Shown here: one piece after another, positions 247 through 19,199 of the stretch
Numbering within the stretch: the first letter of the stretch is position 1
Layout: the number at the start of each line of letters is the position of its first letter
From: Synechococcus sp. JA-3-3Ab
GTDB taxonomy: Bacteria > Cyanobacteriota > Cyanobacteriia > Thermostichales > Thermostichaceae
Length of the DNA: 64,000 nucleotides
Direction of reading: 5' to 3'
NCBI RefSeq assembly: GCF_000013205.1
Contig: NC_007775.1
Span: 2,166,501-2,230,500 of the forward strand
The notes under the pieces: generated by a model
Told to the model about the DNA's origin: nothing
What the model saw: the letters and a program-made list of their open reading frames with translations, nothing else
The model's database searches: none
Program-made: the position numbers and the translations under genes

Positions 247-3138
247 CTACCTCGCCATCAAAACGCCGGTGGAAGGTGCCGAAGAGGCTGGTTGCAGCAG
301 TTGCCGCAGCTTTTGGATCAGCTCCTGTTCCTGGAAGGGCTTGGAGAGGTAGGCGCTGGCTCCCAGCCGCTGGGCCAGTTGGCGGTGTTTCTCGCCACTG
401 CGGGAGGTGAGCATGACCACGGGAAGCTGGTCATACAGGGGGTGGGCACGAATCTGGGCCAGCAAGCCAAAGCCATCCAGCCGCGGCATTTCAATGTCGG
501 TAATCACCGCTCGGATGGGAATTCCTCTCTGCAAGTGCTCGAGGGCCTCTTGTCCGTCGCGAGCCTGTTCAACCCGGAACCCTGCTCTTTCTAGGGTCAT
601 GGCCAAGAAGCGGCGCACGTTGACCGAATCTTCCACCACCAGCAGGGTGGGCTGGGCGGCAAACCTGGGCTGGGGAAGGGGATCCCTTGCCGACTGACAG
701 GGCTGATCCCGCTGGGCGAGCAGCCAGCTCAAGAGGGCAGGCGGATCCACGAAAAGAGCGATTCGCCCATCGGCCAAAACCGTACAGCCGGAGAATCCCG
801 ACGGCAGAGGCAGACCTCCCTCCACCGGGCGCAGAGTTACCTCTTGCTCCCGCCAAAAGCGATCCACCAACAGGCCATAGGGCCGGTTGTCTTCTACCAC
901 CAGCAGCACCACAGGTCGGTCGAGAAGGGGGGTCTCGTCAATTTCCCGGCGAGGCTGCCAGCGCGCGAAGCGAAACCAGTGACCCACAGGAATTAAAGGG
1001 ATCTGCTCCCCTTCCCAGAGAAAGGAATCGGCAGGCAACTGCGGGGGGATAAGCAATTCTTCCACTGCGTTGGCCGGAAAAGCCAACATCAACCCCTGGC
1101 ATTCTGTCAGCAGCACGCGGGTGACGCTCAAAGAAACGGGCAGAGTGAGGGTAAACAGCGTGCCCCGTCCCGGCCAAGATTCCACCTGCACCTGGCCGCC
1201 AATTCGTTGCAGGTTGGTGCGTACCACGTCTAGACCCACTCCCCGTCCAGATAGCTCGCTGACTCGCTCGGCGGTGCTGAAGCCCGGCTGGAAGATCAAC
1301 TCCAGCAGCTCCTGGGAGCTGGCCTCAGCCAGGTCGGCAGCGGAAAACCCTATCTGCAAGGCGCGGGCCCGGATTTTATCCAGACAGATCCCTGCCCCAT
1401 CGTCTCGCACCGTGATCAGAGTGCGGTTGCCCCGTTGGCTGGCGGCAATTTCGATGAGGCCCTTGGCCGGCTTGCCCTGGGCCAGGCGGGTGTCTGGAGC
1501 CTCGATGCCGTGGTCAAAGGCGTTGCGCACCAAGTGCAACAAGGGATCCGCCAAGGCCTCCAAAATCGAGCGCTCGATTAGGGTGGATCCCCCCAAGACC
1601 CGCAGCTCCACGGGCTTGCCATGGGCTAAGCTCAGCTCCCGCAGCGCTCTGGGGAAGCGATCCGTCAAATCCGATAGAGGCTGCATGCGCACCTGGTCGA
1701 GACGGGTTTGCATTTGCCTGGAGAGGCGGCTGAGCTGGCGGGCGCTGCCTTCGGTCTCCTGCAGGGTGGTGTCGATATCGTGGGTTACCTCATCAATTTG
1801 CACAACGGTTTCCATCACCTCTTGGGTCAGCAGGTGCATCTCTCCATAGCGATCCATCTCCAAGAGGTCAAAGGTATCGGCCAAGGTCAGGCCGGGATCC
1901 CCTTCTTTTTTCAAGAGCACAGAAGCAGGCACGGTGGCAGCGACGCGGTCGTAGCTGCTGCGCAGGCGGCTGTTGGTTTCTTCTAGAGTGCGAACCCGCC
2001 GTTTGAACAAGCTGACCAGCTCCCGCAGCCGTTGCAGGCGACTGTTTAAGCGGTTGCGCTCCCCTATGAGCTCTCCCAACAGCTCCCCCAACTGTTCCAG
2101 AGGGCGAGCCGGCACCCGTAGCATCTCGGCAGCGCTTTTGGCCCCGGCTGGAATCGAATCCGGCAGCTCGGTGGCTCCTGCCATTGCAGGGGGAGGGGCT
2201 TCTGGCGGGGGGGAAACTGGAGGCTCTGCCGGATCCCAGGAGCTGGGGAGAAGAGCGACCTGACCGACCAGCACCAGGGCCTGCGAGCGTCGCCAAGCTT
2301 GTAAAGCCGCCTGAGCAACGGGCAACACCTGCTCCTTGGCATTTGGCGGCAGCGTCTCCAGAGCTTGGACTACTGAGCCGCACAGGGTGGCAAAGGCAGG
2401 CAGATCCAACATTTCCCCCAACGCCCCCAGCTCTTGGGCAGCAATGAGAAACTCCTCCCGCAAACAGGGCTGCTCGGGGTGGGCCAGCACACCTTCCAAC
2501 CGCTGCAGACAGGCCTCCACCTCGGTTGCAAACAGCAGCACCCGCATATCGCCCCCGGCCTCTGCTGCCAGGACTTGGACGTTGTCCTCAGGCTGCAACT
2601 CTCCCAACTGCTCTCGCAATTGATCGAAAAGAGGCTGCACCCGCTCTGCCAGCCAAGATTCGTCCAAAAGCCGCTGCTGGCGGTGCTGCTGGGCTATTTG
2701 GCGCATGCAATCCAACGCCGCCAAGAGGTTGCGCTCCACTGCGGGGTCGGCTTTTTGGGGATCCACCTGCAAGATCTTGAAACCATCTTCCAGGCGATGG
2801 GCCAAGTCGCTAAGCACCGGAAAGCCCATCATGGCCGCCCCGCCCTTGATGGAATGAGCAGCCCGCAGCAAGCGATCCAAACGGGGGCGATCCAAACTCT
2901 GGGATCCCAGGCCCAACACCCCTGCCTCCAGGGTGTCGAGGTAAGCCTGGGCTTCGTCCAAAAACTGCAGCCTAACCTGCCACTCGCGTGGGTCGAGGGA
3001 AGTGGGATTCGGCCCTATGCTAAACCGCCTCCCCCACCTTGAAGGTGGACACAGAAGTCTGCAACTGACGGGCAACCGCCACCGTAGCCTGGAGAGAGTT
3101 GGCCACCTGCTGCGAGGCTGCCGCCGTCTGGGCGGCAA
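247..3138 (-). CDS. CheA-type hybrid histidine kinase (PixL/PilL-like)
   Basis: Central kinase of a chemotaxis-like system that in cyanobacteria controls type IV pili and phototaxis. Order of domains: HPt with phosphorylatable His about residue 95 ([14 protein letters not shown]), a long linker, dimerisation and HATPase region ([21 protein letters not shown]), a CheW-like domain, and a C-terminal receiver ([13 protein letters not shown]; acceptor Asp in [12 protein letters not shown]; Lys in LSKPF). The only ATG, at 3138, overlaps the receptor gene by 119 bases, and the first ~50 residues are low-complexity Arg/Pro. The true start is probably later: a TTG at 3075 or 2961, the latter just before [11 protein letters not shown]. 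Family assignment is secure; the start is not. Confidence 0.9.
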
Positions 3139-4140
3139 TGTTGGCGATTTGCTGCATCAACTGGCGCACCGTTTGAGATGCATCTGCCTGGGCATCGGTG
3201 GAGCGGGCAATGGCCTGAAAGAGCTGGTTCACCTGCCGCGAGACTTCCACAATTTGTCCCAGGCTCTGCTTGGCTGCTTCCACCAAGCGGGTTCCCTCCA
3301 CCACCTGGCCGGTGCTGGTTTCCATCGCCTGTACCACCTCGCCGGTTTCCCGTTGGATCCCTTCCACAATGCGCTCGATCTCGCGGGTGGCTTCTGCCGA
3401 CTGGGCCGCCAGTGCCCCGACTTCCTCGGCGACCACCGCAAAACCTCGCCCTTCTTCGCCGGCACGGGCTGCCTCGATACTGGCGTTCACCGCCAAGAGG
3501 TTGGTTTTCAGCGCAATCTGGTTGATCAAGGACACCACCTTGGAAATCTGCTGGGAAGATTCCCCCAGCCGCTTCACCTTCTTGGCCGTTTCGGCCACCG
3601 TTTCCCGCAGTTGCAGGATGTTTTGCACTGTGCGATCCATAGTCAAGCTGCTGTTGATGGCCGTGGCGGCGGCAGATTCGGCAACGGTGGCGGCCTGTTG
3701 GGCTTTATCGGCTACCTCCTCGATTGAGAGCGTCATTTGCTCGACAGAGCGCAAGGTCTCTTCGATTTGGGTGGCCTGTCGGAGAGCGGCTTCGGCCAAC
3801 TCGCGAATGGCTGCCTCGTCACGACCAATCGATTGGTTGACTTGACCGGCGGCCTGCTGCACTTGAATCACGATGTCGCGCAAGCTCTCGATAATGACGT
3901 TGAAAAAGTCCGCCATGATGCCAACTTGTCGGGCTGTTAGCTGCGCCCGCACCGTGAGATCCCCCCGCGAGGCTTCTGTGACCTCGCTGATAAGCTGCAG
4001 CAGCTCTCTTTGCAGCGCTTCCGACCGCTCCCGTTCCTGGGCGGCCACGGCTTTTTGCTCCAGCGCCCCCAGGTTACCCAAAGCTTGACCCAGGCGGTTG
4101 GCCAGCTCTGCCAAGGTTTTCTGTTCTTCGTCAGCTAGAA
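3020..4140 (-). pseudogene. Methyl-accepting receptor (PixJ/PilJ-like), 3' half
   Basis: C-terminal half of a receptor cut in two by the tnpB element. It begins with the last bases of the GAF domain ([21 protein letters not shown]) and continues with a HAMP-like segment ([20 protein letters not shown]). A full MCP signalling domain follows, with the conserved hairpin tip as [15 protein letters not shown] at 4114 opens a 364-residue frame, so a soluble signalling fragment could still be made. Joining across the element restores the frame, with ...SQSW followed by FLADEEQ, which shows that one gene was interrupted. The stop at 3020 lies just upstream of the kinase. The 5' half is at 5431-6566. 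Confidence 0.85.
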
Positions 4141-4196
4141 ATCGCAGGAGCCCCGCACTGTACCCGTAGGGTCAGTGCCGGGAGGAATGCGCTTTG

Positions 4197-5408
4197 ATGA
4201 AGTACAATGAACTTATGAGCCAAGTCCTGACCGTCTCCTGTAAGCTCAAGGTAGCCCAGTCGCAAGCCGCCAAATTGGACGCGACGATGGAGGCTTTTGG
4301 CCAAGCCTTGAACTGGGTCAACCAGAACACGCCGGAGAAGATCGTCAACGCGGTCAAACTGCAATCCCTTTGCTACTACGAGATTCGCGCCCGATTCGGC
4401 TTGTCCAGCAACTTGGCCCAGCAGGTGTGCAGACGGGTGGCAGGCGCTCGCAAAGTGGCGAGACAGCGCAACCGTCCGGTTAAAGAGTTCAAGCGTGGGT
4501 TCGTTACCTACGACGCACGTATCTTTTCATTCCGCGAGAAAGACTGGACGGTGTCGCTGACCACGGTGGAAGGGAGAGAACGCTTTGAGCTAGCCATTGG
4601 TAACTACCAGAGGGGAATGCTGGCTGGCTCTAACCCCAAATCGGCCACCCTAGTCCAGCGGAAGGATGGCTCCTACTACATCCAGATTTGCGTAGAGAAA
4701 AAACCACCCAAGCAACAAGATACCGACAAGGTGATCGGGGTGGACTTGGGGAGGACAGATATTGCCCATACGTCAGAGGGGGACAACTGGAATGGACAGC
4801 AGTTGAACAGAGTCCGAGACCACTACTCCCGGTTGAGGGCGGTACTCCAACGCAAAGCCAGTAAGGGCACACGCAGTTCGCGGCGCAGATGCAGAGAACT
4901 GTTGCAACGGCTGTCTGGCAAGGAGAGACGCTTTCAAGTGTGGGTCAATCATCGCATCTCCAAAGCCATTGTCTCTAGGGCAAAAGCTACCAACAGCGCT
5001 ATTGCTCTGGAAGACCTGACAGGGATCCGGGAAAGGGTCAATCAACAGCCACGCAGCAAAGCCGAGCGGCGTAGGACCAACAGTTGGGCGTTCTACCAAC
5101 TACGTCAGTTTCTGGAGTACAAGGCGAGGGTTGCAGGGGTTTCTCTGATTCTTGTGCCGCCTGCTTACACGTCGCAGACCTGTCACAAGTGTTTACACAT
5201 CCATCCCGATCCTGCGCAATCCTACCGCAATGGCAAGTCGTTTAAGTGTGGGCACTGTGGATGGGAAGGAGATGCGGACTTGAATGGTGCAAACGTAATT
5301 GCGCTCTTGGGGGCTGTCGTAAACCAGCCTAGAGGTCCGGGCTTGTTTTGTTCTCTGGTAGAGCAGAACAGGCTCAGGGCTACTGAAAGCCCGCTCCGTA
5401 CCGCTTAG
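4197..5408 (+). CDS. tnpB: TnpB RNA-guided nuclease (transposon-encoded)
   Basis: TnpB proteins of IS605/IS1341 elements are RuvC-type nucleases guided by omega RNA, and ancestors of Cas12. This one looks intact. RuvC motif I is GVDLGRTDIA, motif II is ALEDLTGIRE, and the zinc ribbon has the pairs CHKC and CGHC. Motif III follows as GDADLNGANVIA, so the D-E-D triad is complete. About 403 residues is normal length. ATG 4197 is preceded by GGAGG at suitable spacing; an internal ATG at 4215 (MSQVLTVS) is an alternative. The gene is transcribed opposite to the receptor it disrupts. The 3' coding end overlaps the probable omega RNA. Confidence 0.92.
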   Translation: MKYNELMSQVLTVSCKLKVAQSQAAKLDATMEAFGQALNWVNQNTPEKIVNAVKLQSLCYYEIRARFGLSSNLAQQVCRRVAGARKVARQRNRPVKEFKRGFVTYDARIFSFREKDWTVSLTTVEGRERFELAIGNYQRGMLAGSNPKSATLVQRKDGSYYIQICVEKKPPKQQDTDKVIGVDLGRTDIAHTSEGDNWNGQQLNRVRDHYSRLRAVLQRKASKGTRSSRRRCRELLQRLSGKERRFQVWVNHRISKAIVSRAKATNSAIALEDLTGIRERVNQQPRSKAERRRTNSWAFYQLRQFLEYKARVAGVSLILVPPAYTSQTCHKCLHIHPDPAQSYRNGKSFKCGHCGWEGDADLNGANVIALLGAVVNQPRGPGLFCSLVEQNRLRATESPLRTA

Positions 5409-5430
5409 CGGTCGGAGCCGGGTAGTTTAC
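5290..5430 (+). ncRNA. Probable omega RNA (reRNA) of the TnpB element
   Basis: In this family the guide RNA scaffold covers the end of tnpB and the right end, and the guide is the flanking DNA. Here the last ~120 bases of tnpB and the following 22 bases hold two stable hairpins: GGGCT/AGCCC near 5378-5392 and GCTCCG/CGGAGC at 5393-5418. The predicted guide would start at about 5431 (ACCAGCTCTGGCTTTGGG), which is the antisense strand of the receptor GAF region. The 5' limit is not visible. Confidence 0.5.
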
Positions 5431-7276: not shown

Positions 7277-7651
7277 TCATGAGCTCGCGCTGAGCACTAC
7301 TGATTTCACGGCCCGCAAAATGTCTTCGCGGGTAAAAGGCTTGGTCAGATAAAGATCGATCCCTTGCTTCATGCCCCAGAGTTTGTCCAGCTCTTGATTT
7401 TTAGAAGTACAGGCCACAACGGGCAACTTTTGGGTTTCCGGGTTTTTCTTGATTTGGCGGCACAATTCCAGCCCGCTCATGCCTTCCATGACCAAGTCCG
7501 TCAGCACCACATCGGGTTTGTCGTTGCGGATCTGCTGCAATGCCTCTTGGGCGTTGGCCACCGCTACCACCTGATAGCCTTCTGAGCGGAGGTAATCGCT
7601 GATGAGCTGTCGCTCCGAGGCCACATCTTCCACCACAAGAACTTTCACCAT
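7277..7651 (-). CDS. CheY-like single-domain response regulator (PixH/PilH-like)
   Basis: A single receiver domain of about 124 residues. VLVVEDV carries the acidic pocket, VVLTDLVMEGMSG the phosphoacceptor Asp, ACTSKN the Thr/Ser switch, and LTKPF the Lys. The start at 7651 (MVKVLVVED) is chosen because AAGGAG ends nine bases upstream; an ATG three codons earlier, at 7660, abuts that ribosome binding site directly. It lies between the PATAN-CheY and CheW genes and is probably the diffusible output acting on the pilus motors. Confidence 0.92.
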   Translation of the reverse strand: MVKVLVVEDVASERQLISDYLRSEGYQVVAVANAQEALQQIRNDKPDVVLTDLVMEGMSGLELCRQIKKNPETQKLPVVACTSKNQELDKLWGMKQGIDLYLTKPFTREDILRAVKSVVLSASS

Positions 7652-7698
7652 GATCGACATCTCCTTACCTCTTTTTCGACGAACCTTTAGAGGGATCC

Positions 7699-8943
7699 CT
7701 AGCTGAGATAGCGAAACACCATCTGCAGCAATTCTTCCTGCCGAAAGGGCTTGGTCAGGTAATCGGTGGCACCGGCCAGGCGCGCCTTCACCCGATCGAT
7801 CAGACCTTTGTGGCCTGTGACCATCACCACCGGCACATCCTTTAACACGGAGGATTTGCGGATGAGGCTGCACAATTGGTAGCCATCCACGTTGGGCATA
7901 CCCACGTCCAGCAGGATCAAATCTGGCTTGAGGGTGGTCAGCTTCATCAGGGCTTTCAAAGAGTCGCTGATGGCGTGAATGACCAGGTTGTGCCCTTCCA
8001 ACAACCGCTGCAACTCGCTGAGCATGGCTTCGCTGTCGTCAATACAGGCCACAATCCAGGTTTTCGAGGCCTGGGGAGATGGGCCTAGATCTGCAAGCTC
8101 GTTGGCCAGGTGAAGAGGGACGGTGGGAGTTTCTGAGGGCTGTGATTCTGTCTCAAGCTTGGCCGAGTAGGTTTTGGGCAGCCGATCAAAGGGGGGTTGG
8201 GGATCCCGCAGGACAAGGATACCGGCTTTGACCAGAGGATGTAGGCGGCGAGCGATCTGGAGGTCGTCTTGATCGAGAAGGGCGCTCAACTGGCGGAAGC
8301 TAAACCCCTTCAGTAACCGGCCTAGCCGTTCCTGTTGCTCGGCGGGAAGGCGTTCTGCCTGGGCCCGGCTGGCAAAGTAGGGCCGTTGGTAGGGGGAGGT
8401 GATCTCAGGCCCCAAAGATTGCCATGCCCGTAGCCGCTTTTGGATCAGGTCGAGCAGGGATCCCCCATCCCACTGGCCCAGGGTGGGCACGTTGTCCAGT
8501 GGGATGATCTCCTGCTGAAAGCCCCCTGGAACCAGCAACAGATTTTGCAGCACCTCCTCGCCGATCCAAGCATTCAACCTGCGCGCAGCTTCCCAAGGCA
8601 GCAGTTGCTCCGTTACCATCCAACTCAGCCCCAGAAGGTCTGCAGGTAGAGGCCCAGTCTCCTGAGCCAATAGCGCCTCCACCTGCCGATGGATACGTAG
8701 GCAATTTTGGCGAGTCAGAGAAAAGACTTGATGGCTGAGCCGACGCAGGTGGCGATCCAAGCGCTCCAAGGGCTCCAAGCTGTGGTGAGCAAACCCCAGG
8801 CGACCTTGGTGAAACACCAATGACCAAGTGCCCAGCCCCTCCCCTTTGTCCAAGGCACTGAAATACCGAACAACTCCTGTGAAGCTGACCTCTGCGTTCA
8901 GCAGATGGGCCGAGACTTCTGTACAGACGGGGGGACAGTTCAT
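7699..8943 (-). CDS. PatA-like response regulator, PATAN + receiver (PixG/PilG-like)
   Basis: First gene of the motility operon. The N-terminal ~260 residues form a PATAN domain (effector N-terminus: FTGVVRYFSALDKGEGLGTW). The C-terminal ~120 residues form a receiver (IVACIDDSEAM; LILLDVGMPNVDG; VMVTGH; LTKPF). PATAN-CheY proteins in cyanobacteria interact with pilus motor components and set the direction of twitching. ATG 8943 has no competing in-frame start nearby. Downstream genes follow at short spacing in the order PATAN-CheY, CheY, CheW, receptor, CheA, CheW. Confidence 0.9.
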   Translation of the reverse strand: MNCPPVCTEVSAHLLNAEVSFTGVVRYFSALDKGEGLGTWSLVFHQGRLGFAHHSLEPLERLDRHLRRLSHQVFSLTRQNCLRIHRQVEALLAQETGPLPADLLGLSWMVTEQLLPWEAARRLNAWIGEEVLQNLLLVPGGFQQEIIPLDNVPTLGQWDGGSLLDLIQKRLRAWQSLGPEITSPYQRPYFASRAQAERLPAEQQERLGRLLKGFSFRQLSALLDQDDLQIARRLHPLVKAGILVLRDPQPPFDRLPKTYSAKLETESQPSETPTVPLHLANELADLGPSPQASKTWIVACIDDSEAMLSELQRLLEGHNLVIHAISDSLKALMKLTTLKPDLILLDVGMPNVDGYQLCSLIRKSSVLKDVPVVMVTGHKGLIDRVKARLAGATDYLTKPFRQEELLQMVFRYLS

Positions 8944-9328
8944 GGGTCGAGAGGACGTGCTCGGACAATTTCCTGCGCTGAGGTTGATGACACGACTGAA
9001 GTCTTAGCTACCCCACAAGCCGGTGAAAAAATGCTTTCCAGAATACAGTTCAAGCCCAGCCCTGACCCAGACGAGATCTTTAGATGAGCCAAGCCCAACA
9101 AGACGGCCAAGGCTGCACGAACTCAAAGGCAGTTTCAGCGTTCAATTCGTATTCAGAAAAACTCTCCTCCTGGGGAGATCGATGACTATTGCTCATCAGC
9201 CAATCTCTAAAGGTGAAGGCTAGCCCTCAGATTGTCTGCTGGCTTTCTTACTCGGGAACTTCCCACGGAAAGCCTGCAAGACAAGATAAAGGTAACCCCG
9301 ATAAACCTCTTCCGTAAAAATACGGAAT
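8944..9328. other. Intergenic stretch upstream of the motility operon
   Basis: 385 bases between the divergent-facing start of the motility operon and the end of the Nudix gene. It should contain the operon promoter, but I see no convincing -35/-10 pair, RNA gene or repeat. The short frames here overlap the Nudix gene or lack any recognisable content. Confidence 0.5.
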
Positions 9329-9808
9329 TTAGGTCTTCTCCAATTTCCAAAGCTGCTCCAGGTGGGCTTGGCAGCGGCGCAGGAGCTGGCGACTTTCTTC
9401 AAAGCTGATCTGCTCCAACGCCTCGGGGTAGGAGCACCAGCGGTAGGCGGCCACCTCTTCTGGCTGCACCTGCAGCTCAGGGGGAGGAAACTGGGGTGGC
9501 AGCAGAGCCACGTAGTAGGTGACGGTCTTGGCCACCGCGTTTCCCTCGGGATCTATAAAAGTGTAGGCCTCTTGCAGCGTCAAAGGGCCAGGCTGGCCGG
9601 GCAGGGTCAGGAGCTGGTAGTCGGTTAGGCCGGTTTCTTCCCGCAACTCCCGCTGGGCTGCCGCCAAGTCGCTTTCCCCCTCATCTTTGTGGCCTTTGGG
9701 AAAGGCCCAGTGCCCCTTCTGATGCTGGATGAGCAGGTAGAGATGGGATCCCTGGGCGGGCGGGAGGGGCAGGATCGGGATTACGCCGTAGGCGGCATCG
9801 GTCAGCAT
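9329..9808 (-). CDS. Nudix hydrolase (diadenosine polyphosphate type)
   Basis: Hydrolyses nucleoside diphosphate-linked substrates, probably Ap4A-like. The Nudix box is complete: GHKDEGESDLAAAQ followed by RELREETGL, matching G-x5-E-x7-R-E-x2-E-E-x-G. The preceding WAFPKGH is typical of bis(5'-nucleosyl)-tetraphosphatases. At 159 residues it is a single-domain protein. It starts six bases after the stop of the upstream exported protein, so the two are probably co-transcribed. Confidence 0.88.
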   Translation of the reverse strand: MLTDAAYGVIPILPLPPAQGSHLYLLIQHQKGHWAFPKGHKDEGESDLAAAQRELREETGLTDYQLLTLPGQPGPLTLQEAYTFIDPEGNAVAKTVTYYVALLPPQFPPPELQVQPEEVAAYRWCSYPEALEQISFEESRQLLRRCQAHLEQLWKLEKT

Positions 9809-9814
9809 GGGGAG

Positions 9815-11047
9815 CTAGTCTCCAAAGAGTTTGATGGCGGGCGGCCTGGGATCGAAAACCCCGTTGGGATCCACCCGCGGGCGCTCCACCCCTTGCAGGG
9901 GATAGAGAGGGCGACCCGTGTCGAATTGAAAGAGGTAGATAGGCAACTGGCTGCTCCCCAAAGGCAAGAAGGCTAGGGTATCGATCTGGGTAAGGGCGTT
10001 GCGGCTGGCCGGTCGGGTGAGGTTAAAGGCGGCGATGCGGTCTTCCAAGGGGGTCTTGGCCTCGCTGCGTCGGCCTAGGCCAATGCTAAATTGCTGGTTT
10101 CCCTGCTCATCCACCCCCAAAACCTGCACATCTCCTAGCTCCACTGGGGGCGTGCTCTCCGGCAGGCCGGCCACCACCGGCGGCGCATCCACCGGCGGCT
10201 GCGAGGGCAAAAAGCGCAGCTGCACCCCCTCCGGCAGGATGCGGTAGTCCTGGTAGTCGTGCCGGATGGAAAGGGATCCCCTGAACAGGCGGCGGGTCAG
10301 GCCCTCCAGCGTCCAAAACCCGTAGGCCAAATTGATGCGGGTGCTCTCCGGCAGCCAGTAGCTAACCCCTGCCTGGGGATCCGGCACTGCCGCAAACCCT
10401 ATCAGGGCATAGGCCTGTCCCCACACCCCCGACAAAAACAAGAGCACCTGCCGCGGCAGCCCCGACTCCGGATCCAGCCACAGCTCCCGCACCTGGCCCT
10501 CTTGGAGAGGCTCTAAACGCAGATGCTGGACAGGGAATCCCGCCAGAGTTACCCGTTCTGAGGAGAGGACGCGGTAGCGGCTGGGATCAGCCTCTAGATG
10601 AAAGCTCACCGAGGGCAGGAGCGCTTCGGGCCGGCTCACGTACACCGAATACAGCCTGAGTAAGTCCGATTGGTTCACCGCTTCCAGTTGCCGCGAATCC
10701 AACAGGCGGACGCGATCCCCTTCGGCTACCCAAGCCTGCCAACTGCCGTCGCGGCGGCGGAGCACATCCAGGGTGGCTGTAAAGGTCTGGGATCCCTCAA
10801 CCCGCACCTGCTGGCGGTACTGCAAGTTGGGCAAAGGGGGCAGTTGCTTCAAAGCAGCGTTGTAGCGCTCCAGCCAAAGCTGGGGATCCTGGTCAGAGCC
10901 TCTCGAGGAAATGAGCTCCGCTTGGGCCAAAGCCAAATCTGCTGAGGGTAAGCCAACTAGCCCCGCAAGCAAAAGCACAACCCCGCCCAGATAGCCATAG
11001 AGGGATCCCTGCCGTCGCCACCTTCTTACAGATTGTCCGGGGGCCAT
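9815..11047 (-). CDS. Exported conserved protein of unknown function
   Basis: 410 residues with an Arg-rich N-terminus, a hydrophobic segment (GYLGGVVLLLAGLVGLPS) and an Ala-x-Ala cleavage site near ALAQA. The mature part is beta-rich, with many short strands and a line such as RVTLAGFPVQHLRLEPLQEG that recalls LolA/MucB-like outer-membrane lipid-handling folds. I cannot assign a family with confidence. It shares an operon with the Nudix gene. Confidence 0.7.
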   Translation of the reverse strand: MAPGQSVRRWRRQGSLYGYLGGVVLLLAGLVGLPSADLALAQAELISSRGSDQDPQLWLERYNAALKQLPPLPNLQYRQQVRVEGSQTFTATLDVLRRRDGSWQAWVAEGDRVRLLDSRQLEAVNQSDLLRLYSVYVSRPEALLPSVSFHLEADPSRYRVLSSERVTLAGFPVQHLRLEPLQEGQVRELWLDPESGLPRQVLLFLSGVWGQAYALIGFAAVPDPQAGVSYWLPESTRINLAYGFWTLEGLTRRLFRGSLSIRHDYQDYRILPEGVQLRFLPSQPPVDAPPVVAGLPESTPPVELGDVQVLGVDEQGNQQFSIGLGRRSEAKTPLEDRIAAFNLTRPASRNALTQIDTLAFLPLGSSQLPIYLFQFDTGRPLYPLQGVERPRVDPNGVFDPRPPAIKLFGD

Positions 11048-11101: not shown

Positions 11102-11302
11102 CTACTCAATGGCAATAGACTGGGGGCCTTGCGTGGAGGCGGGCGGATCCTCTACCCTCAAGCCCTGGGACTCCAGCCAGCTCCGCAGCGGATCTTGCCT
11201 GATGTCCAAGCGCAGCAGGCCGCTTAGGAAGCCCCCGCAGAAGACAACAGGGTTGCTCAGAAAGGTCTTCCAGACCTCGTTGGGAGTAAACATAGTTGGC
11301 AT
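11102..11302 (-). CDS. Small conserved cyanobacterial protein
   Basis: 66 residues containing FLSNPVVFCGGFLSGLLRLD, then a short helical, acidic C-terminus. The hydrophobic stretch with CGG may be a membrane helix or amphipathic. It lies alone between the Argonaute gene and the exported protein, on the same strand as both. The composition matches the host, with Pro-rich ends and a GGATCC site. I do not recognise a function. Confidence 0.6.
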   Translation of the reverse strand: MPTMFTPNEVWKTFLSNPVVFCGGFLSGLLRLDIRQDPLRSWLESQGLRVEDPPASTQGPQSIAIE

Positions 11303-11355
11303 CTCAAACCCTTCCCCATCCTAGCAGGGCCCACAGGGAAGAACCCCCTACCCTG

Positions 11356-13545
11356 CTAGACGGCAATCAATTTCTGGCGATCTATGTTTTGCAGGATACT
11401 GAAGATGTTATCGCCAAGGCGCTGGAACTCCTTGCCGCTTTTGTCGGCAAAATGGAGCACCCAGGGCAGCCTACAGGCTTGGAAGCCACTGGCAGGATGA
11501 AGTTGAGAGAGGTGATAGGTTTGTAAAGCCAGAACTTCCAAGGGAGTCTTGCCGTGCTCGTGGATCGCTCGCAGAGGTCTTGCACTGCCGAGGGAGTTCC
11601 CACCTTTTCTAATGGGCTGGCTTGTTATTAGAGTAAACGACTTTCGCGAGTAGTCGAAAACAACAGTGCCTATTTTGGCATCTTTGTACTTACCTTTTCC
11701 TTCTTCTATCCCCATTCTTCCTGTACCGCTTTTGCGTATGCCAACAATATCCACAGCAATCTTTTCTTTTTCTAGCTCCTCAATTGTTCTACTAAATTCG
11801 CCTCCTTGAACTAAACCATCCCTCATCAAGAGAACCTTGCTTGGATATCGGCTAAGCTTGTCATAAAACCTATCGACAAGTTTGGACACAGTTTGATAAA
11901 TTGCGTCCCCGGAGAAGGTTTCTCCTCTCTGCACAGCAGGTAGCTCCCAACCTAAGCTCTGCCCATCAGCCAGAACAGCGAAAGCAGAGGCTCCGTAGTA
12001 TAGCCGCCGATTGGTTCCCACATCGAAGCCGATGATCAGCTCAGGGCCTACAGGATCGTCGAGGGGTTCCAGGAGTACCGGCTGCCACGCTGCCTTGCAC
12101 AGAAGCCCGAGGACGACGTTTAGAGCCTTGTATGGATCAGCCCCAGGGATCATAAACTGAGTCGCTATCCCTGCTTCAAGGGCCTCCATGCGGATCCTTT
12201 GCTTGCGCTCATTGGGTGACCAAGGCATAACGACCAAAACCGTTTTGATCCCTTGCTCAGCCCAGGTTTGCCAGAACCTTTTTCGGGCGAGATCGCCCTT
12301 AGGCAAGTCTTGCTGAGTGGCATAGAAGTCTACTTCAATTTCCGCGCCGCTTTTTTGGGCTACCTCAAGCAAGCAGTTGAGCACTTCGCTAGGGTACTCT
12401 CGCTTGTCGTCATAGAGGTTTAGACATGCAAACTTGGTCTCGCCTACCTTCGCACATCCCCGGTATCTAACCCGAGCAGGATTTTCAACTGGTCTGCGAC
12501 CCGATCCCAATAGCTTTGGCTTGGGCAGGATGTAGCCTTGAGTCTTTAGCGGCTTAATTTCCTCAGGGGAAAGTTTGTAGACTTCCTTTATAATGGTCCT
12601 CGCAGTCTCTTCGGACTCTTCGAATCGTTCTTTCAAACTTTTTCTGATGCACTCGATAACAGCGGCGCTAACTTTTCCGCCAGGGCTTCTGTTGTCTTCT
12701 AGACTGGCTAGCATCTCCAAGGTTAAAGCAGGCGATAACCTTCGGGAGAGATGGGGATAACGTCTTTCCTTTGATGCTACTTCGACTACCCAAGAGCTCT
12801 CAACTTCTTCTACAAGTGCATTGTACTTCTGCAAATGATACTCCGCCAGACTGATGTTCTGCTCTGGTAACCGAATCTCCCGTGGGGATTGGTTAGAAAG
12901 AATACCCAGATATTTCCAAGTCAAACGTTTGCCGTTCGCATCAAAGTATGTATTTCGCACAATCTCGATTGGAACGTCCGGATAGCTTTCCAACCATTCA
13001 TGCAAAGTCCACGGCGTGTAGAAGCGGTAATGAATATCGACTTCTAAGTAAAGCTTTCCGTCTGGTTCGACGGCAACATCTATCATTCTCCCTCTGTGGA
13101 TTTCCCAGCCTTCTCCGGAAAGTTCTACCCCTTTCTGAGCAGTCACCCACCAGAGCAGGCCGCCTCCTATCCATTCGACTTCAGTTTTCTTGTACTGAGA
13201 TTTAAGGCGCAACCCTATCCTCTTGCGCTCAAAGCTTTCGAGGGCGCTTCTTTCTTGAGCATTGGCACAGGTTAGAACCCTAAGCCCACGCTCTTCCAAC
13301 TCCCACTCTGGTGTTTTGAGCTGGCTGGGCGAAACTCTTTCCTGCGTGATAATGCGACTTCCCAAACGAGCAGCTATTACATCTAGCCGATTGCAAACCC
13401 TAGCGATAGCTCTCTGCTCTTCTCCTAGCTCCGGGGGTGGGTTTGGCCTACAGTCGTACTCATAAAAGGTGAGGTCTTCCTGAGTTAGCTCCTTAACAAG
13501 AAAGCGATTGAGGATAACTGGAACTTCCTGCTGAAGCATTCTCAT
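11356..13545 (-). CDS. ago: Long prokaryotic Argonaute, catalytically competent
   Basis: A 729-residue pAgo with N, PAZ-like, MID and PIWI regions. The PIWI tetrad is intact: D508 (IIGFDVGTN), E542 (RGETFSGD), D576 (LLMRDGLV) and D701 (LHFADKSG). Their spacing of 34, 34 and 125 residues closely matches Thermus Ago (34, 34, 114). In MID, Q463 (GIATQ) and K484 (GLLCK) are present. The usual (Y/R)xxxK at -15/-11 from the Gln reads K448-xxx-R452. It probably uses small nucleic acid guides to cleave invading DNA or RNA. Start at 13545 is favoured by AGAGG six bases upstream; TTG 13551 and ATG 13539 are alternatives. No partner nuclease or helicase lies beside it. Base composition differs from its neighbours. 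Confidence 0.93.
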   Translation of the reverse strand: MRMLQQEVPVILNRFLVKELTQEDLTFYEYDCRPNPPPELGEEQRAIARVCNRLDVIAARLGSRIITQERVSPSQLKTPEWELEERGLRVLTCANAQERSALESFERKRIGLRLKSQYKKTEVEWIGGGLLWWVTAQKGVELSGEGWEIHRGRMIDVAVEPDGKLYLEVDIHYRFYTPWTLHEWLESYPDVPIEIVRNTYFDANGKRLTWKYLGILSNQSPREIRLPEQNISLAEYHLQKYNALVEEVESSWVVEVASKERRYPHLSRRLSPALTLEMLASLEDNRSPGGKVSAAVIECIRKSLKERFEESEETARTIIKEVYKLSPEEIKPLKTQGYILPKPKLLGSGRRPVENPARVRYRGCAKVGETKFACLNLYDDKREYPSEVLNCLLEVAQKSGAEIEVDFYATQQDLPKGDLARKRFWQTWAEQGIKTVLVVMPWSPNERKQRIRMEALEAGIATQFMIPGADPYKALNVVLGLLCKAAWQPVLLEPLDDPVGPELIIGFDVGTNRRLYYGASAFAVLADGQSLGWELPAVQRGETFSGDAIYQTVSKLVDRFYDKLSRYPSKVLLMRDGLVQGGEFSRTIEELEKEKIAVDIVGIRKSGTGRMGIEEGKGKYKDAKIGTVVFDYSRKSFTLITSQPIRKGGNSLGSARPLRAIHEHGKTPLEVLALQTYHLSQLHPASGFQACRLPWVLHFADKSGKEFQRLGDNIFSILQNIDRQKLIAV

Positions 13546-13621
13546 TGGCAACCTCTGAGTTCAAGCTTCTCTCTAGAATAAGCCCTAATTTTCCCGATCG
13601 CGCCTTGGGGATCCCCCTAGG

Positions 13622-14089
13622 TTAGAGCTGAAACAACTCGGGCGGAGCCAGGTCGTGGCTAAGCGCCTCAGCCTCAAAGTGGCCGCTCATGCCCACCACC
13701 TGCCACTCAGCACCGCGATTCCCCTGACGGAAGCGCAGCCGTCGAGCCCGCAACGGCACCACGGCTACAACTTCTACTGGAAATTGTTGGTATTCGCCCA
13801 AGTACTCCCGGTAGTCCGGCGGCAGGTCGGCACTGCTTTCGATTTGAATCCAAAACACTCGTCCCGCCTGGTTGCCGTAAGCGCGGATCTGCTCCTGACC
13901 CTGGTACTGCTCCACGCCGCGTAGCCGCTGCCGCCCCACTTGCATAGACTGAGCCCACTCCGGCAAGGGATCCCCCAAGCTAATCGGCCAGGCTGGTGCA
14001 CCCAACCCCAGCCAACACAACAGCAGCAGAACCCAGACCCAGGGCCAGCGGCGTGTCCTTCGATGGGCAGGGATCCCTTGGGCAACCAT
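13622..14089 (-). CDS. Exported hypothetical protein
   Basis: 155 residues with a classic signal peptide: basic HRRTRRW, then hydrophobic VLLLLCWLGLGAPAW, then a mature region that is beta-rich with no cysteines. No domain recognised. ATG 14089 is preceded by GGAGG at good spacing. It sits between the aspartic-protease-like lipoprotein and Argonaute, all on the minus strand. The ~70 bases between it and Argonaute could hold the Argonaute promoter. Confidence 0.65.
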   Translation of the reverse strand: MVAQGIPAHRRTRRWPWVWVLLLLCWLGLGAPAWPISLGDPLPEWAQSMQVGRQRLRGVEQYQGQEQIRAYGNQAGRVFWIQIESSADLPPDYREYLGEYQQFPVEVVAVVPLRARRLRFRQGNRGAEWQVVGMSGHFEAEALSHDLAPPELFQL

Positions 14090-14136
14090 CACTTTCCTCC
14101 GCAGTTAACTCGAGGCTTCAGAAGAGGGAATCGGCC

Positions 14137-15399: not shown

Positions 15400-18300
15400 C
15401 TAGCGGGACAGGTTCTCGCCCTGCGGGCTAGCCTCCGGCATCAGACAGCCGAGGGCATCACACCCTGCTGGCCCCTCTGCGGTTAGGGCGAGGTTGCGGT
15501 CATAGCGCGCCAGCGCCTCGTAGAAGTTATCGACCTTTCGCCTTTGCTTGACCTCGGCCATCAGCCGTTCATAGGTGGCTTTGTCAATTTTCTCAAAGGG
15601 CAAGCGGGGGAAGGGAGCGTCGAAGCGGGCCAGCAGTGCTGCGCTGATGTAGCCCTCGTCGTCGCGGATGGCCTCGTAAATGCGGGATCCCAGCGCCTCG
15701 ATCTCGTCCTCGCGCAGCTCGAGGGTGGCCGAGGTGTTGTGGGTGGTGTAGTACTTTTGCACCTGCATGTAGAAGTCGAACTGGGCCAGGGCAGAAAAGC
15801 GCTCAATCTCAATCTCCTCAGCGCCGGGCAAGTTGGCCCACTCCACCTCCACCGGCAGCTCCACCAGCCACTCGGTGCAGCGGGGATCAAAGGGGTCGTT
15901 GAGCAGGTTGCCGTTTTCATCCTTATCAGACTGGGCGGGCACCACCGAGTAGCCGTAGTCCAGACAGGCGAGGGCCACGGGGTCGTTTTTGGCAAAGGTG
16001 ATGCGGCGGATGTAGCGCTGGGCCTTGGGCGGGTGCCAGCCGGGGGAGGCGTTGGTGAGCAGGGACTTGGTGCCGGCGGGCTGAACAGTGGTGCAGCGGT
16101 TGGGACGGCGCAACCCGTGGCGGTCGCAGTAGTCCCAGACCACGCGGTGGACGACCTCCTTCCAGAAGCTGAGGTATTCCCGCTCCTGCTGCTTAAACTC
16201 CCGCCCCAGAGGCGTATCGGGCCTCCCTTCCTGCCACCAGCGCAGCCAGTCCACCCCAAAGGCTTTGACGCAAAAGTCAAATAGACCAGTAAACGAGACG
16301 CCGACAATGGGATCCCATTCCCTTGAGCGCTGGAAGCGGGGCTCAACAAAGCGGTGGTGCAATAGCGCCGCAGCCGACAGGGCCCCTGCCGTAAAGGCCT
16401 CCTCTTGCTCCTGGCGGTTGTGGGGATCTAGCCGGTTGAGGTGGATCTCGGCCAGATTGCAGTGGAAGTCGCATCCGATGATCTCACCGCAGTTGTGGAC
16501 AACCAACCCATTGGCATCAAAGCAGCTTGGGCCGGGCACGGTGCAGTCATAGACCGGTTCCACGCCGTCAGGCTCCAGGGCTGCAACTGTAACCGTAAAC
16601 CACTCCCGGTTGAGCCGGCGCTGGTAGCTGCCGAGCAGTTCACCTAGCTTCTGAGCTTTGCGCGGTTCTCGAAAGCCCACCACTGCCTGAAACTGGTGCA
16701 GGTTGTCCCCGCTAATGACCAGCTCGTGCTGCACCTTGCAGGCGTAGGGGGCTGGCTGGCGCTTGCTATCAGGCAGCAGACGATACCCAGCGGGACGGCG
16801 ATTCTCGTAGATGGCCGAGACAATCCCTAGACGCGCCAGCATGCGCTGCACAGCTTTGAGGGTGTCCAGGTTGCTTTGGGAAAGCCGCACACTAACTCCC
16901 TTCTCTTGACCGCCCTGCACACTGCCGTCTGCGTCAAACAGGCCGCACAAAAAGCCGCGGTGGAAATCAAAGCTTGTGGCTTCCAGTGCCGCAGTCATTT
17001 GCTTCTGTCCTGGAGCCATGCCGAACTTAGCCGCCAGTCTCGCCAAGCCGGTGGAATGGATAACCCAGCACTTCAGCTTGGGGTGATAACAGGTCTCTGG
17101 CCGGCGAGGTTCGTACCCTACCGCAGCCTGCAACACCTGAGCCGCATGGAGGCTCCTCTCCTGCTGCGTATCCTGCCCATAGCGCAGTACAGCCGTGTCA
17201 TTCCCCTGGGTTGTGGCAAGGCTGCCGTCGCCCAGCAAATTCCCCAAGAGCCAGCCTTCCTCCCAGGTCCCCTCACCATCCCAGGGGGTCAGGTCGCGAT
17301 GGTTGTGCAGCAGAATGCGGTCGCCCGGGCGGAGCTCTTCTGCCGGCACCCATTCCGTGTATTGCGCCTTTGGAGTCTGGGCAATGACTTTGAGAACACG
17401 ATGGTTGCCCGTCAGCCGAAGAGAAAATCCCTCCTGGGTCACCAGCTTGAGCACGGGCTTGGTGCCGGAGTAGAAAAACCCCTCTGGGGTCGTGCTGAAT
17501 AGCTCGCCGTTGACGTAGGTGCTGTGCTGCTTGCCAATAAGGTCTTTCACCTGGCGCGGGCCGTCGCCCGTGTGGATCCAAGTGTCTGCGGTAACGCAGG
17601 GGTTCAGCCCATACCGTTGCACCCTATGCCACGTTGGCGGTTGGACAGACGGAGAGCTACTAGCTGCCTGCCGCTCCTCTATCCAGCGCCTAGCTCCCTC
17701 GGGTCCCTCCGAGGCATAGACGTTGAGGAACTCCCGCTTCAGCTCGGGGGTGTTGATTAGGTCGGCGTTGGCCCGCGCTACGGCTTCTCCAGCCCACTGG
17801 ATAGCCCCCTCGCCGGAGTAAAACTGCTTGCGCACGGCAGCAATGCACTCTTCCCGCGTTGGCTTGCGGTGAAATACCCGGGTGTGGTTGGCCATGCGCA
17901 GGGCATCTCGCTCAGGGTCAATTCTCCAGTTGCCCTGCTCGTCCTGCTGCCAGAGATTGTCTTTGGCGCTAGATCCCAGCTCGTCGTCGGCGGCAAACTG
18001 GCGCATACCTGCACTACGGCGGATATTCCCCGCCACCACCGTTGCGGCCGCCTCATCAATGAGCAGGCAGCACTCTACCGAGTTCAGTTGCCTGCCCACG
18101 GCTTTGTTGAGGATGGCGGCACAGCGCTGGTACAAGCCGGGCAGCTTGATGGGGTTGGCCACGCCCCCAAACCCTTTTAGCCGCTCCCCAGCGGGGCGCA
18201 CATGGCTGAGATCCACCGTCACCTCCACCTGACCCCCAAAACTGGGATCCGCCGCCAGCTCCAGCAGCGCCTGGTAGGACTCCACCCAGCCCCGCCGGCT

Positions 18301-18867
18301 ATCCCCCACCTGGATGTGCACCCGGGATCCCTGCCGCTGGATGGGGGTGTGCTCCTGCCGAGAATGCCGCGGCGTGGCGCCGATGGATCCCACCACCTGC
18401 ACCTGCAGGCGGTTGAGGATGGGGGGCAAGCGGTTGATGAACTGGGGCTCCAGCACCGCCCCCGTGCCGCAGCCCATCATGGCCAAATCCATCATCAGGC
18501 CAAAAGAGCGCCAGTCCACCACGGTGAGGCTGGTGCAGTTGTAGGCACCGGAGTAGTTTTCCGGCTTCTGGATCCAGTCGGTGCCCATCACCCACAGGGC
18601 CCGACCGGAGATCAAGGCCTTCAACTGCCGCTGCAGACGTTCCACCAGCTCCCGCTCTTGAGGAGTAAAACGCCCTAAGCGGGCAATATCGGCCAGGGTG
18701 CGATCGCAGACGTCGCTCCAGGTCTCGCGGCTGCTATCTGGGCGACGCCGACTGTAGGTGCGGTAGAACACTGGGGCAGCCGCCGGGGCCGTGGCTGGAA
18801 ATTCGCCCAGGGAGCCCATACCAAGTCCCTGGATTGCCGGAGAATGTGCTTCCTTGCTCTGAACCAT
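15400..18867 (-). CDS. nrdJ: Class II (B12-dependent) ribonucleotide reductase with intein
   Basis: Makes deoxyribonucleotides using adenosylcobalamin. The protein has 1155 codons, of which 369 are an intein; the 786-residue mature enzyme is normal for a monomeric cyanobacterial class II RTP reductase. Visible are YSGAYNCTSLTVVDW, the MMGCGTGAVLEP region, and the active-site NPCGE, which is split by the intein into GLNP and CGEIIG. Later come CTTVQPAGTKSLLTNASPG and a C-terminal region with paired Cys (AGCDALGCL) that could be the redox-active tail. ATG 18867 (MVQSKEAHS) is preferred. The open frame extends upstream to 19170, but that part does not resemble protein and is rich in repeats of host composition. 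Confidence 0.95.
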   Translation of the reverse strand: MVQSKEAHSPAIQGLGMGSLGEFPATAPAAAPVFYRTYSRRRPDSSRETWSDVCDRTLADIARLGRFTPQERELVERLQRQLKALISGRALWVMGTDWIQKPENYSGAYNCTSLTVVDWRSFGLMMDLAMMGCGTGAVLEPQFINRLPPILNRLQVQVVGSIGATPRHSRQEHTPIQRQGSRVHIQVGDSRRGWVESYQALLELAADPSFGGQVEVTVDLSHVRPAGERLKGFGGVANPIKLPGLYQRCAAILNKAVGRQLNSVECCLLIDEAAATVVAGNIRRSAGMRQFAADDELGSSAKDNLWQQDEQGNWRIDPERDALRMANHTRVFHRKPTREECIAAVRKQFYSGEGAIQWAGEAVARANADLINTPELKREFLNVYASEGPEGARRWIEERQAASSSPSVQPPTWHRVQRYGLNPCVTADTWIHTGDGPRQVKDLIGKQHSTYVNGELFSTTPEGFFYSGTKPVLKLVTQEGFSLRLTGNHRVLKVIAQTPKAQYTEWVPAEELRPGDRILLHNHRDLTPWDGEGTWEEGWLLGNLLGDGSLATTQGNDTAVLRYGQDTQQERSLHAAQVLQAAVGYEPRRPETCYHPKLKCWVIHSTGLARLAAKFGMAPGQKQMTAALEATSFDFHRGFLCGLFDADGSVQGGQEKGVSVRLSQSNLDTLKAVQRMLARLGIVSAIYENRRPAGYRLLPDSKRQPAPYACKVQHELVISGDNLHQFQAVVGFREPRKAQKLGELLGSYQRRLNREWFTVTVAALEPDGVEPVYDCTVPGPSCFDANGLVVHNCGEIIGCDFHCNLAEIHLNRLDPHNRQEQEEAFTAGALSAAALLHHRFVEPRFQRSREWDPIVGVSFTGLFDFCVKAFGVDWLRWWQEGRPDTPLGREFKQQEREYLSFWKEVVHRVVWDYCDRHGLRRPNRCTTVQPAGTKSLLTNASPGWHPPKAQRYIRRITFAKNDPVALACLDYGYSVVPAQSDKDENGNLLNDPFDPRCTEWLVELPVEVEWANLPGAEEIEIERFSALAQFDFYMQVQKYYTTHNTSATLELREDEIEALGSRIYEAIRDDEGYISAALLARFDAPFPRLPFEKIDKATYERLMAEVKQRRKVDNFYEALARYDRNLALTAEGPAGCDALGCLMPEASPQGENLSR
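16492..17598 (-). other. Intein in nrdJ with LAGLIDADG endonuclease
   Basis: 369 residues in frame. It begins with Cys1 (CVTADTWIHTGDGPRQV). An N-terminal splicing block B equivalent reads LTGNHRVLK. The two LAGLIDADG motifs are LLGNLLGDGSL and FLCGLFDADGS. It ends with the canonical GLVVHN just before the +1 Cys. The +1 residue is the NPCGE cysteine, by family knowledge the thiyl-radical Cys, so the reductase cannot work unsplit. The homing endonuclease looks intact, so the intein may be mobile. Confidence 0.95.
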
Positions 18868-19199
18868 AGTTACACCCCTTCTGCAAAGCTGCCTTTGGGA
18901 AAGCTCCTTTGAGCGCCGGTTTACAACCCTGCCGAGCCAATGCCCAACCACGTTATCACAATCTTCAGAAGCCTGGTGTTGTAGGTGGTGGTGTTCTCTA
19001 GGCAACTCCTCAGGATCCCCTAGGGATAGGGCAAGCTCGGTTACCTCCCCCCGCTGTTCCCCTGGGCTGGCGGCGGCGGGTGGGGAAGGAAGACCAGGCA
19101 AAAGGGCTACAGTGGAAAAGAGGGATCCCACGTCAAGTCTGCAATGGCACCTTCCTGGGCCTTCTCCCAAGTAAGAGCTTTGTAAGGAGTTGCATCGCC
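18868..19199. other. Divergent intergenic region between nrdJ and the S2P gene
   Basis: 332 bases that must hold the promoters for both genes. I looked for a cobalamin riboswitch in the nrdJ leader and did not find the B12-box core. For the + strand gene, AAGGAG lies about ten bases before ATG 19200. No clear -10/-35 pair was seen. Confidence 0.5.

Follow-up and report, generated by a model that had tools for sequence, protein, structure and literature searches.

Does the cyanobacterium Synechococcus sp. JA-3-3Ab carry a long Argonaute (Ago) with its catalytic residues intact, and what might a stand-alone enzyme of this kind do in its host? The gene lies in a 64,000-nucleotide stretch of NC_007775.1 (positions 2,166,501 to 2,230,500; hereafter the window, whose numbering is used unless another genome or locus is named), within a single contig of 2,932,766 bases. 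The host is thermophilic; in Table 1 of PMC4477158 the source of JA-3-3Ab is given as Octopus Spring, at temperatures of 58-65 °C. A search of open-licence papers found none pairing a prokaryotic Argonaute with this strain, and the word Argonaute is absent from the main text of PMC4477158, PMC9600594, PMC2612747, PMC11456837 and PMC12755884.

A sequence-only reading had proposed a long Argonaute at 11356-13545. Profile, alignment and fold evidence all bear this out and show that the gene is read from the minus strand, which is open for 729 codons; read on the plus strand, the interval is rich in stops.

11356..13545, minus strand: long-A prokaryotic Argonaute (pAgo), 729 residues, with its ATG at 13545 and its stop at 11356 (reading frame, profile and fold evidence)
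13552..13556, minus strand: putative Shine-Dalgarno-like AGAGG, six bases 5' of the Ago ATG, from the sequence

The PADLOC pAgo model matches the protein at E = 1.6e-297 across model positions 2-672 of 672, far above chance, and phmmer aligns residues 9-727 to the Argonaute of Thermus thermophilus (TtAgo; 3dlb) at E = 4.4e-75. An NCBIfam search returned only a sub-threshold argonaute match (19.7 vs 700 bits), and a scan of genome contigs with the single protein as query gave no match.

Within this frame, the domains and candidate catalytic residues fall as follows.

12730..12999, minus strand: PAZ domain, residues 183-272 (Pfam PAZ_3, E = 3.2e-25, above the cut-off)
12154..12483, minus strand: MID domain, approximately residues 355-464 (TtAgo alignment; Pfam Ago_Mid below its cut-off)
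11359..12039, minus strand: PIWI (RNase H-like) domain, approximately residues 503-729 (TtAgo alignment and structure model)
12022..12024, minus strand: catalytic D508
11920..11922, minus strand: catalytic E542, the glutamate finger
11818..11820, minus strand: catalytic D576
11443..11445, minus strand: catalytic D701

All four catalytic assignments rest on the TtAgo alignment, a position check and the alignment of relatives. The Pfam Ago_Mid match scored 16.1 bits against a cut-off of 27; candidates for the MID pocket that binds the guide 5' phosphate, assigned by alignment to TtAgo, are K448, R452 and Q463, with K484 further on, and these columns are conserved among aligned relatives. The four acidic residues named by the earlier reading are indeed present at those positions and match the TtAgo tetrad, presumably D478/E512/D546/D660, in the phmmer alignment. 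Their spacing, described as close to that of the Thermus protein, is 34/34/125 in the window protein vs 34/34/114; the window Ago is 44 residues longer than TtAgo, and its third and fourth catalytic positions lie 11 residues further apart. Across the 32 full-length rows of the relatives' alignment (five PIWI-only rows were left out of this count), 29 have DEDD and two DEDH, and one ends before the fourth residue.

Structure prediction agrees with these placements. A first AlphaFold2 model, built on an alignment of eight rows, gave pLDDT below 50 for residues 683-729, D701 among them; because that model was poor at the C-terminus, we used a second, built on 37 rows (mean pLDDT 85.7, pTM 0.83), in which residues 511-517 are below 50. 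Foldseek with this model returned TtAgo as the top match (E = 7.6e-57), and VIA-align superposed model residues 1-729 on residues 2-685 of TtAgo (5xow) over the whole length (Z 47.7, rmsd 6.2 over 663 residues). D508 is modelled at the end of the first PIWI strand (503-508) and D576 at the end of strand 570-576, E542 sits in the loop preceding helix 546-564, where a glutamate finger is expected, and D701 lies within the C-terminal helix 695-718. Judged by secondary-structure placement, no residue of the tetrad is predicted to fall outside the active site. The window gene thus apparently encodes a four-domain protein with an intact, conserved tetrad, and the N, PAZ, MID and PIWI domains and DEDX tetrad assigned to it from sequence and model are those of a long-A pAgo; DNA cutting is predicted.

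Two characterised Argonautes are the closest known counterparts of the window enzyme. The genome that we take to be S. elongatus (G037) encodes a protein presumed to be SeAgo, from PCC 7942, that is approximately 55% identical to the window Ago over its full length. Both are long-A proteins with DEDD tetrads, apparently from the same part of the tree, and no partner gene is common to both loci; SeAgo differs in its mesophilic host, chromosomal site and neighbours, and of the two only SeAgo has been characterised. TtAgo shares approximately 31% identity, the same tetrad, the whole-length fold and a thermophilic host; in the Thermus records that we found it is encoded on plasmids, whereas the window Ago is chromosomal. 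Because the clade to which it probably belongs already holds SeAgo, a characterised cyanobacterial member, intactness of the tetrad is not by itself novel, and the window enzyme is ordinary for its clade, a further protein of the TtAgo/SeAgo type.

Matches to this Ago occur in 39 of the 388 genomes of the class at E <= 0.001 and in 29 at E < 1e-100. In a midpoint-rooted tree of 32 rows, which holds no Thermus row, the window protein groups with that of the congener G004 (support 100/100), the pair then joins six Thermosynechococcus-type rows (93/87), and a group of 13 that includes G037 appears at 90/99 (not starred). The six Thermosynechococcus-type genes occupy one common chromosomal site. 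According to PMC10653904, the active pAgos of close Synechococcus and Thermosynechococcus lineages form one cluster near TtAgo and have probably spread horizontally, and those predicted in filamentous cyanobacterial genomes comprise only two metagenome-derived sequences. By contrast, we find full-length DEDD members in Nostoc and Leptolyngbya isolates. One genome of the class (G139) encodes a second, divergent Ago (G139:C1:2303621-2305759). Viral carriage was considered and set aside: among the 25 pattern matches from a scan of viral contigs there was no relative.

The earlier reading also described the gene as standing alone, with neither helicase nor nuclease partner, and this holds for the neighbours scanned (nine with Pfam, ten with PADLOC). 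These encode GAF, CheW, response-regulator, NUDIX and aspartyl-protease-like proteins and core genes without a clear family; the only one strongly resembling a defence-library model is a TnpB 6 kb away. No effector gene was found among these neighbours, which sets the Ago apart from the partner-effector classes (short pAgo, PLD-linked, helicase- or nuclease-linked). Comparison of reading frames of at least 70-80 residues around 8, and then 30, cyanobacterial Ago loci likewise yielded no recurrent helicase or nuclease beside the gene, and only small shared groups apart from Ago itself: a 1,142-residue protein at four loci and, at three loci each, three further groups that include TnpB. The four loci with the 1,142-residue family, which encode it within a few kb of Ago, belong to two unrelated lineages, two being Thermosynechococcus-type and two Pleurocapsales-type.

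L029 14937-18365, L030 1993-5421, and the upstream flanks of L066 and L068: 1,142-residue protein, probably the product of a core gene, perhaps the transcription-repair factor Mfd
11102..11302, minus strand: P0004, a small reading frame of 66 residues downstream of Ago

P0004 was rejected as an Ago partner because congeners without Ago also carry it. Two other features of the window may be recorded here. The TnpB element (4135-5430, reading frame 4194-5408) splits a GAF/chemotaxis-type gene; in G004 that gene is unbroken, and its contiguous flanks there reveal the empty site. A 1256-residue frame at 15400-19170 resembles a ribonucleotide reductase; inside it, residues 719-893 form a homing-endonuclease/intein segment that matches PADLOC HEase.

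Comparison of six genomes of the genus shows that the Ago occupies a position whose content varies between conserved flanks.

11303..13621, no strand assigned: exchange slot, holding Ago in G000 (the window genome) and G004; in G003, G005 and G002 its content is a response-regulator/Ser-Thr-kinase gene, which runs on the opposite strand
13622..14092, minus strand: P0003, upstream flanking core gene of 156 residues with no Pfam family, present in 6/6 genomes
9815..11047, minus strand: P0002, downstream flanking core gene of 410 residues, present in 6/6 genomes

Ago is thus found in two of the six genomes, the two proteins being 72% identical, and the unrelated kinase gene in three; the best matches to the slot kinase in G000 and G004 are paralogues of 38-39% identity located elsewhere. 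In the sixth genome, G001, the slot flanks lie on separate contigs, and no orthologue of the slot kinase was found. One pair illustrates the exchange, G003, which lacks Ago, and G004, which has it: the two are approximately 93% identical up to both slot edges, and G004 8280-10619 (L027) replaces G003 7405-8812 (L034, reversed). The edge sequences hold no remnant of Ago in the G003 slot or of the kinase in the G004 slot.

Between G000 and G004 the Ago genes differ with dN 0.175 and dS 1.35 (dN/dS approximately 0.13, computed with our own Nei-Gojobori script, which gives no standard errors). The dS of the five nearest flanking genes is 0.56-0.94, and that of a gene lying 2.4 kb away from Ago is as low as 0.01. 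On these values a recent transfer of Ago between the two genomes is rejected; since its dS exceeds that of the flanks, the gene appears older than its surroundings, although dS could be raised in an AT-rich gene whose codons are less constrained. Our hypothesis, drawn from six genomes, is that Ago and the kinase are both old alleles of the slot and that homologous recombination has exchanged them. Separately, window positions 1755-4134 are 99.8% identical in nucleotide sequence to G004, while genes nearer Ago have the dS of 0.56-0.94 given above; this segment, which lies near the slot, was recently exchanged between species. An eLife study of the hot-spring Synechococcus A/B population reports widespread hybridisation (PMC12755884).

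The composition of the gene bears on whether it is expressed at all. Its GC3 is 0.51 vs a neighbour mean of 0.72, and a gene whose codon composition is so unlike that of its neighbours may be poorly expressed. That the Ago is intact yet silent or decaying in this host would accord with such a composition, but we consider it very improbable given 729 codons without a stop, an intact tetrad and evidence of purifying selection. Low GC3 is common at other Ago loci: Ago has the lowest value in its neighbourhood at 11 of the 13 loci tested (the window, L027, L029, L030, L033, L052, L054, L056, L057, L059 and L066). Fourfold-site GC is 0.33-0.39 for Ago in six genomes with Thermosynechococcus-type loci vs 0.68-0.77 for four flanking genes of two of them. 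Because the bias is also present in these genomes, which inherit Ago at one site, it is not fading.

Elsewhere among the relatives, Ago appears in a mobile form. The Ago genes of G023 and G139, genomes from two families, are 98.4% identical over 2,371 aligned columns between predicted attC recombination points; upstream of this unit identity is 82, 70 and 51% in 80, 200 and 500 bp (the 80-bp figure includes the neighbouring attC), and downstream it drops to 45-48%. The bounding repeats, of approximately 79 nucleotides, fold as attC sites, with an R stem and an L stem bearing one extrahelical base. Across 17 sites the L stem is 100% paired, with both sides changed in five of nine pairs; its covariation score was reached in none of 500 shuffles, a count that is not a probability because the sites are related, and sliding the partner destroys the covariation. 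Single-strand folding of five sites gave z of -0.4 to -3.1, with one alone clearly below its shuffles. A search by spaced pattern found no attC, and a covariance model placed one 11-25 bp past the Ago stop in G023, G139, G225, G067, G093 (behind one of its two Ago genes) and Chlorogloea CCALA 695 (L056), that is, in 6 of the 35 genomes with an Ago locus searched (34 and the window; L065 and L092 are too short behind the gene to judge). Ten attC sites surround the Ago of G067, all in one orientation.

Further, the 5' end of each cassette should be complementary to the R'' box of its own attC, and in the Ago cassettes of G023, G139 and G067 all 8 of 8 bases are. Over 18 cassettes the complementarity sums to 91, a value matched by none of 10,000 shuffles; one further cassette was left out for want of a box. 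On these sequence features, the Ago genes of G023, G139, G225, G067, G093 and Chlorogloea L056 are identified as integron gene cassettes. Repeats of the attC type are dispersed in some genomes (30 in G041, 25 in G067), and pairs often lie 94-129 bp apart with no reading frame between; MITE-like dispersed repeats are nonetheless rejected as the sole reading, since the box complementarity obeys the integron rule. At L113 and L110 the pairs, 94-129 bp apart, are regular and possibly represent a repeated empty cassette. Among five cassette-bearing genomes searched, the integron integrase is complete in G225 alone (467.9 bits), where a fragment also lies approximately 5 kb from the Ago; it is partial in G023 and G067, and G139 and G093 gave no match. 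In G067, a Gloeomargaritales genome, an insertion (L069 2909-4070) with a 352-residue frame that we name transposase-like disrupts the cassette-borne Ago. In G093 (L052/L053), two Ago copies approximately 14 kb apart are 99.8% identical over 2,246 bp only, one keeping the cassette 5' end and the other the full attC.

Integrons of cyanobacteria are already known (PMC8618304, PMC8352920), the integrons of Vibrio are described as stores of anti-phage cassettes (PMC12409362), and defence genes are reported as over-represented in integrons (PMC7370490). The likeness to Vibrio chromosomal integrons holds for the Agos of the relatives only: a gene followed by attC, an array of attC sites in the same orientation and a transfer unit of cassette size. 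Unlike the Vibrio case, the cyanobacterial Ago cassette measures approximately 2.37 kb, a complete integrase occurs only in G225 of five genomes, and the window Ago has no attC. Among the matches listed from the open-licence literature, titles and abstract openings yielded no report of an Argonaute cassette; because only open-licence papers were covered, priority is not established.

Could the window gene be a fossil cassette that landed between P0003 and P0004 and later lost its attC? Its homologues are cassettes, it is AT-rich relative to its neighbours, and the genus retains attC sites of the same family (one each in G004 and G003, four in G005 and three in G002) along with broken integron integrase genes, frame-broken in G003 (L117, G003:C12:122060-123020) and reduced to a 55-residue remnant in G004. 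Yet the window has no attC match at E up to 10, none was found in G000 or G001, neither a cassette 5' end nor an R box is seen at the edges of the gene, the six Thermosynechococcus-type sister rows lack attC, and homologous replacement accounts for the slot swap equally well. We regard this origin, which is compatible with either functional role discussed below, as rather unlikely; because the window copy lacks attC, cassette origin is offered for it as a hypothesis only.

As to function, the gene probably makes a DNA-guided DNA endonuclease like TtAgo and SeAgo, one that would act without a partner and at the hot-spring temperatures of its host. By analogy with SeAgo and TtAgo, the enzyme would take up short 5'-phosphorylated DNA, which could come both from nicks that it makes without a guide and from nucleases of the host acting at replication forks and breaks; once guided, it would cut matching single-stranded DNA, and DNA that enters the cell or replicates poorly, such as transforming DNA, plasmids or phage, would be lost. 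According to PMC10653904, deletion of SeAgo raises natural transformation by 1-2 orders of magnitude, and SeAgo blocks the maintenance of RSF1010 replicons. Ago may be an exchangeable defence allele: the alternative occupant of its slot in this genus is a signalling kinase, and certain relatives of the gene spread as integron cassettes. Its patchy presence (2/6 genomes of the genus, 29/388 of the class at E < 1e-100) counts for this explanation, and a transformation-restricting gene that is exchanged between hybridising populations and cassette-packed in relatives is in keeping with a defence that is costly and exchangeable.

Guides taken from replication termini, and an ability to help complete replication, are also described for TtAgo and SeAgo (PMC10269773), so defence may not be the main role. 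The principal task of the window Ago might instead be chromosomal, in decatenation or the completion of replication with terminus guides, as in TtAgo, its nearest solved relative, with defence as a by-product. In E. coli, according to PMC10269773, SeAgo and LrAgo take up guides that derive from the terminus and help cells to divide when gyrase is inhibited; against this, the same source reports that SeAgo gave its own host no protection from ciprofloxacin. Moreover, Ago is missing from four of the six genomes of the genus, one of which has flanks 93% identical to those of a carrier, and is therefore dispensable. We hold a mainly chromosomal role to be improbable, though worth weighing, and retain the exchangeable, DNA-guided defence nuclease as the preferred explanation.

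The window enzyme is likely a thermostable relative of a well-studied cyanobacterial Argonaute, in a host for which single-cell genomes from wild populations exist. For the family, the Ago cassettes offer a concrete vehicle for the horizontal transfer inferred for active cyanobacterial pAgos, and they extend the range of defence genes known in integrons to a guide-directed nuclease. Slot exchange together with cassette-borne relatives makes an interesting, partly hypothetical setting. Tentatively, active long-A Agos may circulate as single-gene integron cassettes among cyanobacteria, thermophilic and other, and in the Yellowstone Synechococcus A/B genus a captured Ago may alternate with a kinase as an old allele exchanged by recombination; because SeAgo-type proteins restrict natural transformation, the allele could set how freely cells hybridise. 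The slot polymorphism makes this idea testable with existing data: do Ago-bearing cells contain fewer hybrid segments than Ago-less cells of the same mat?
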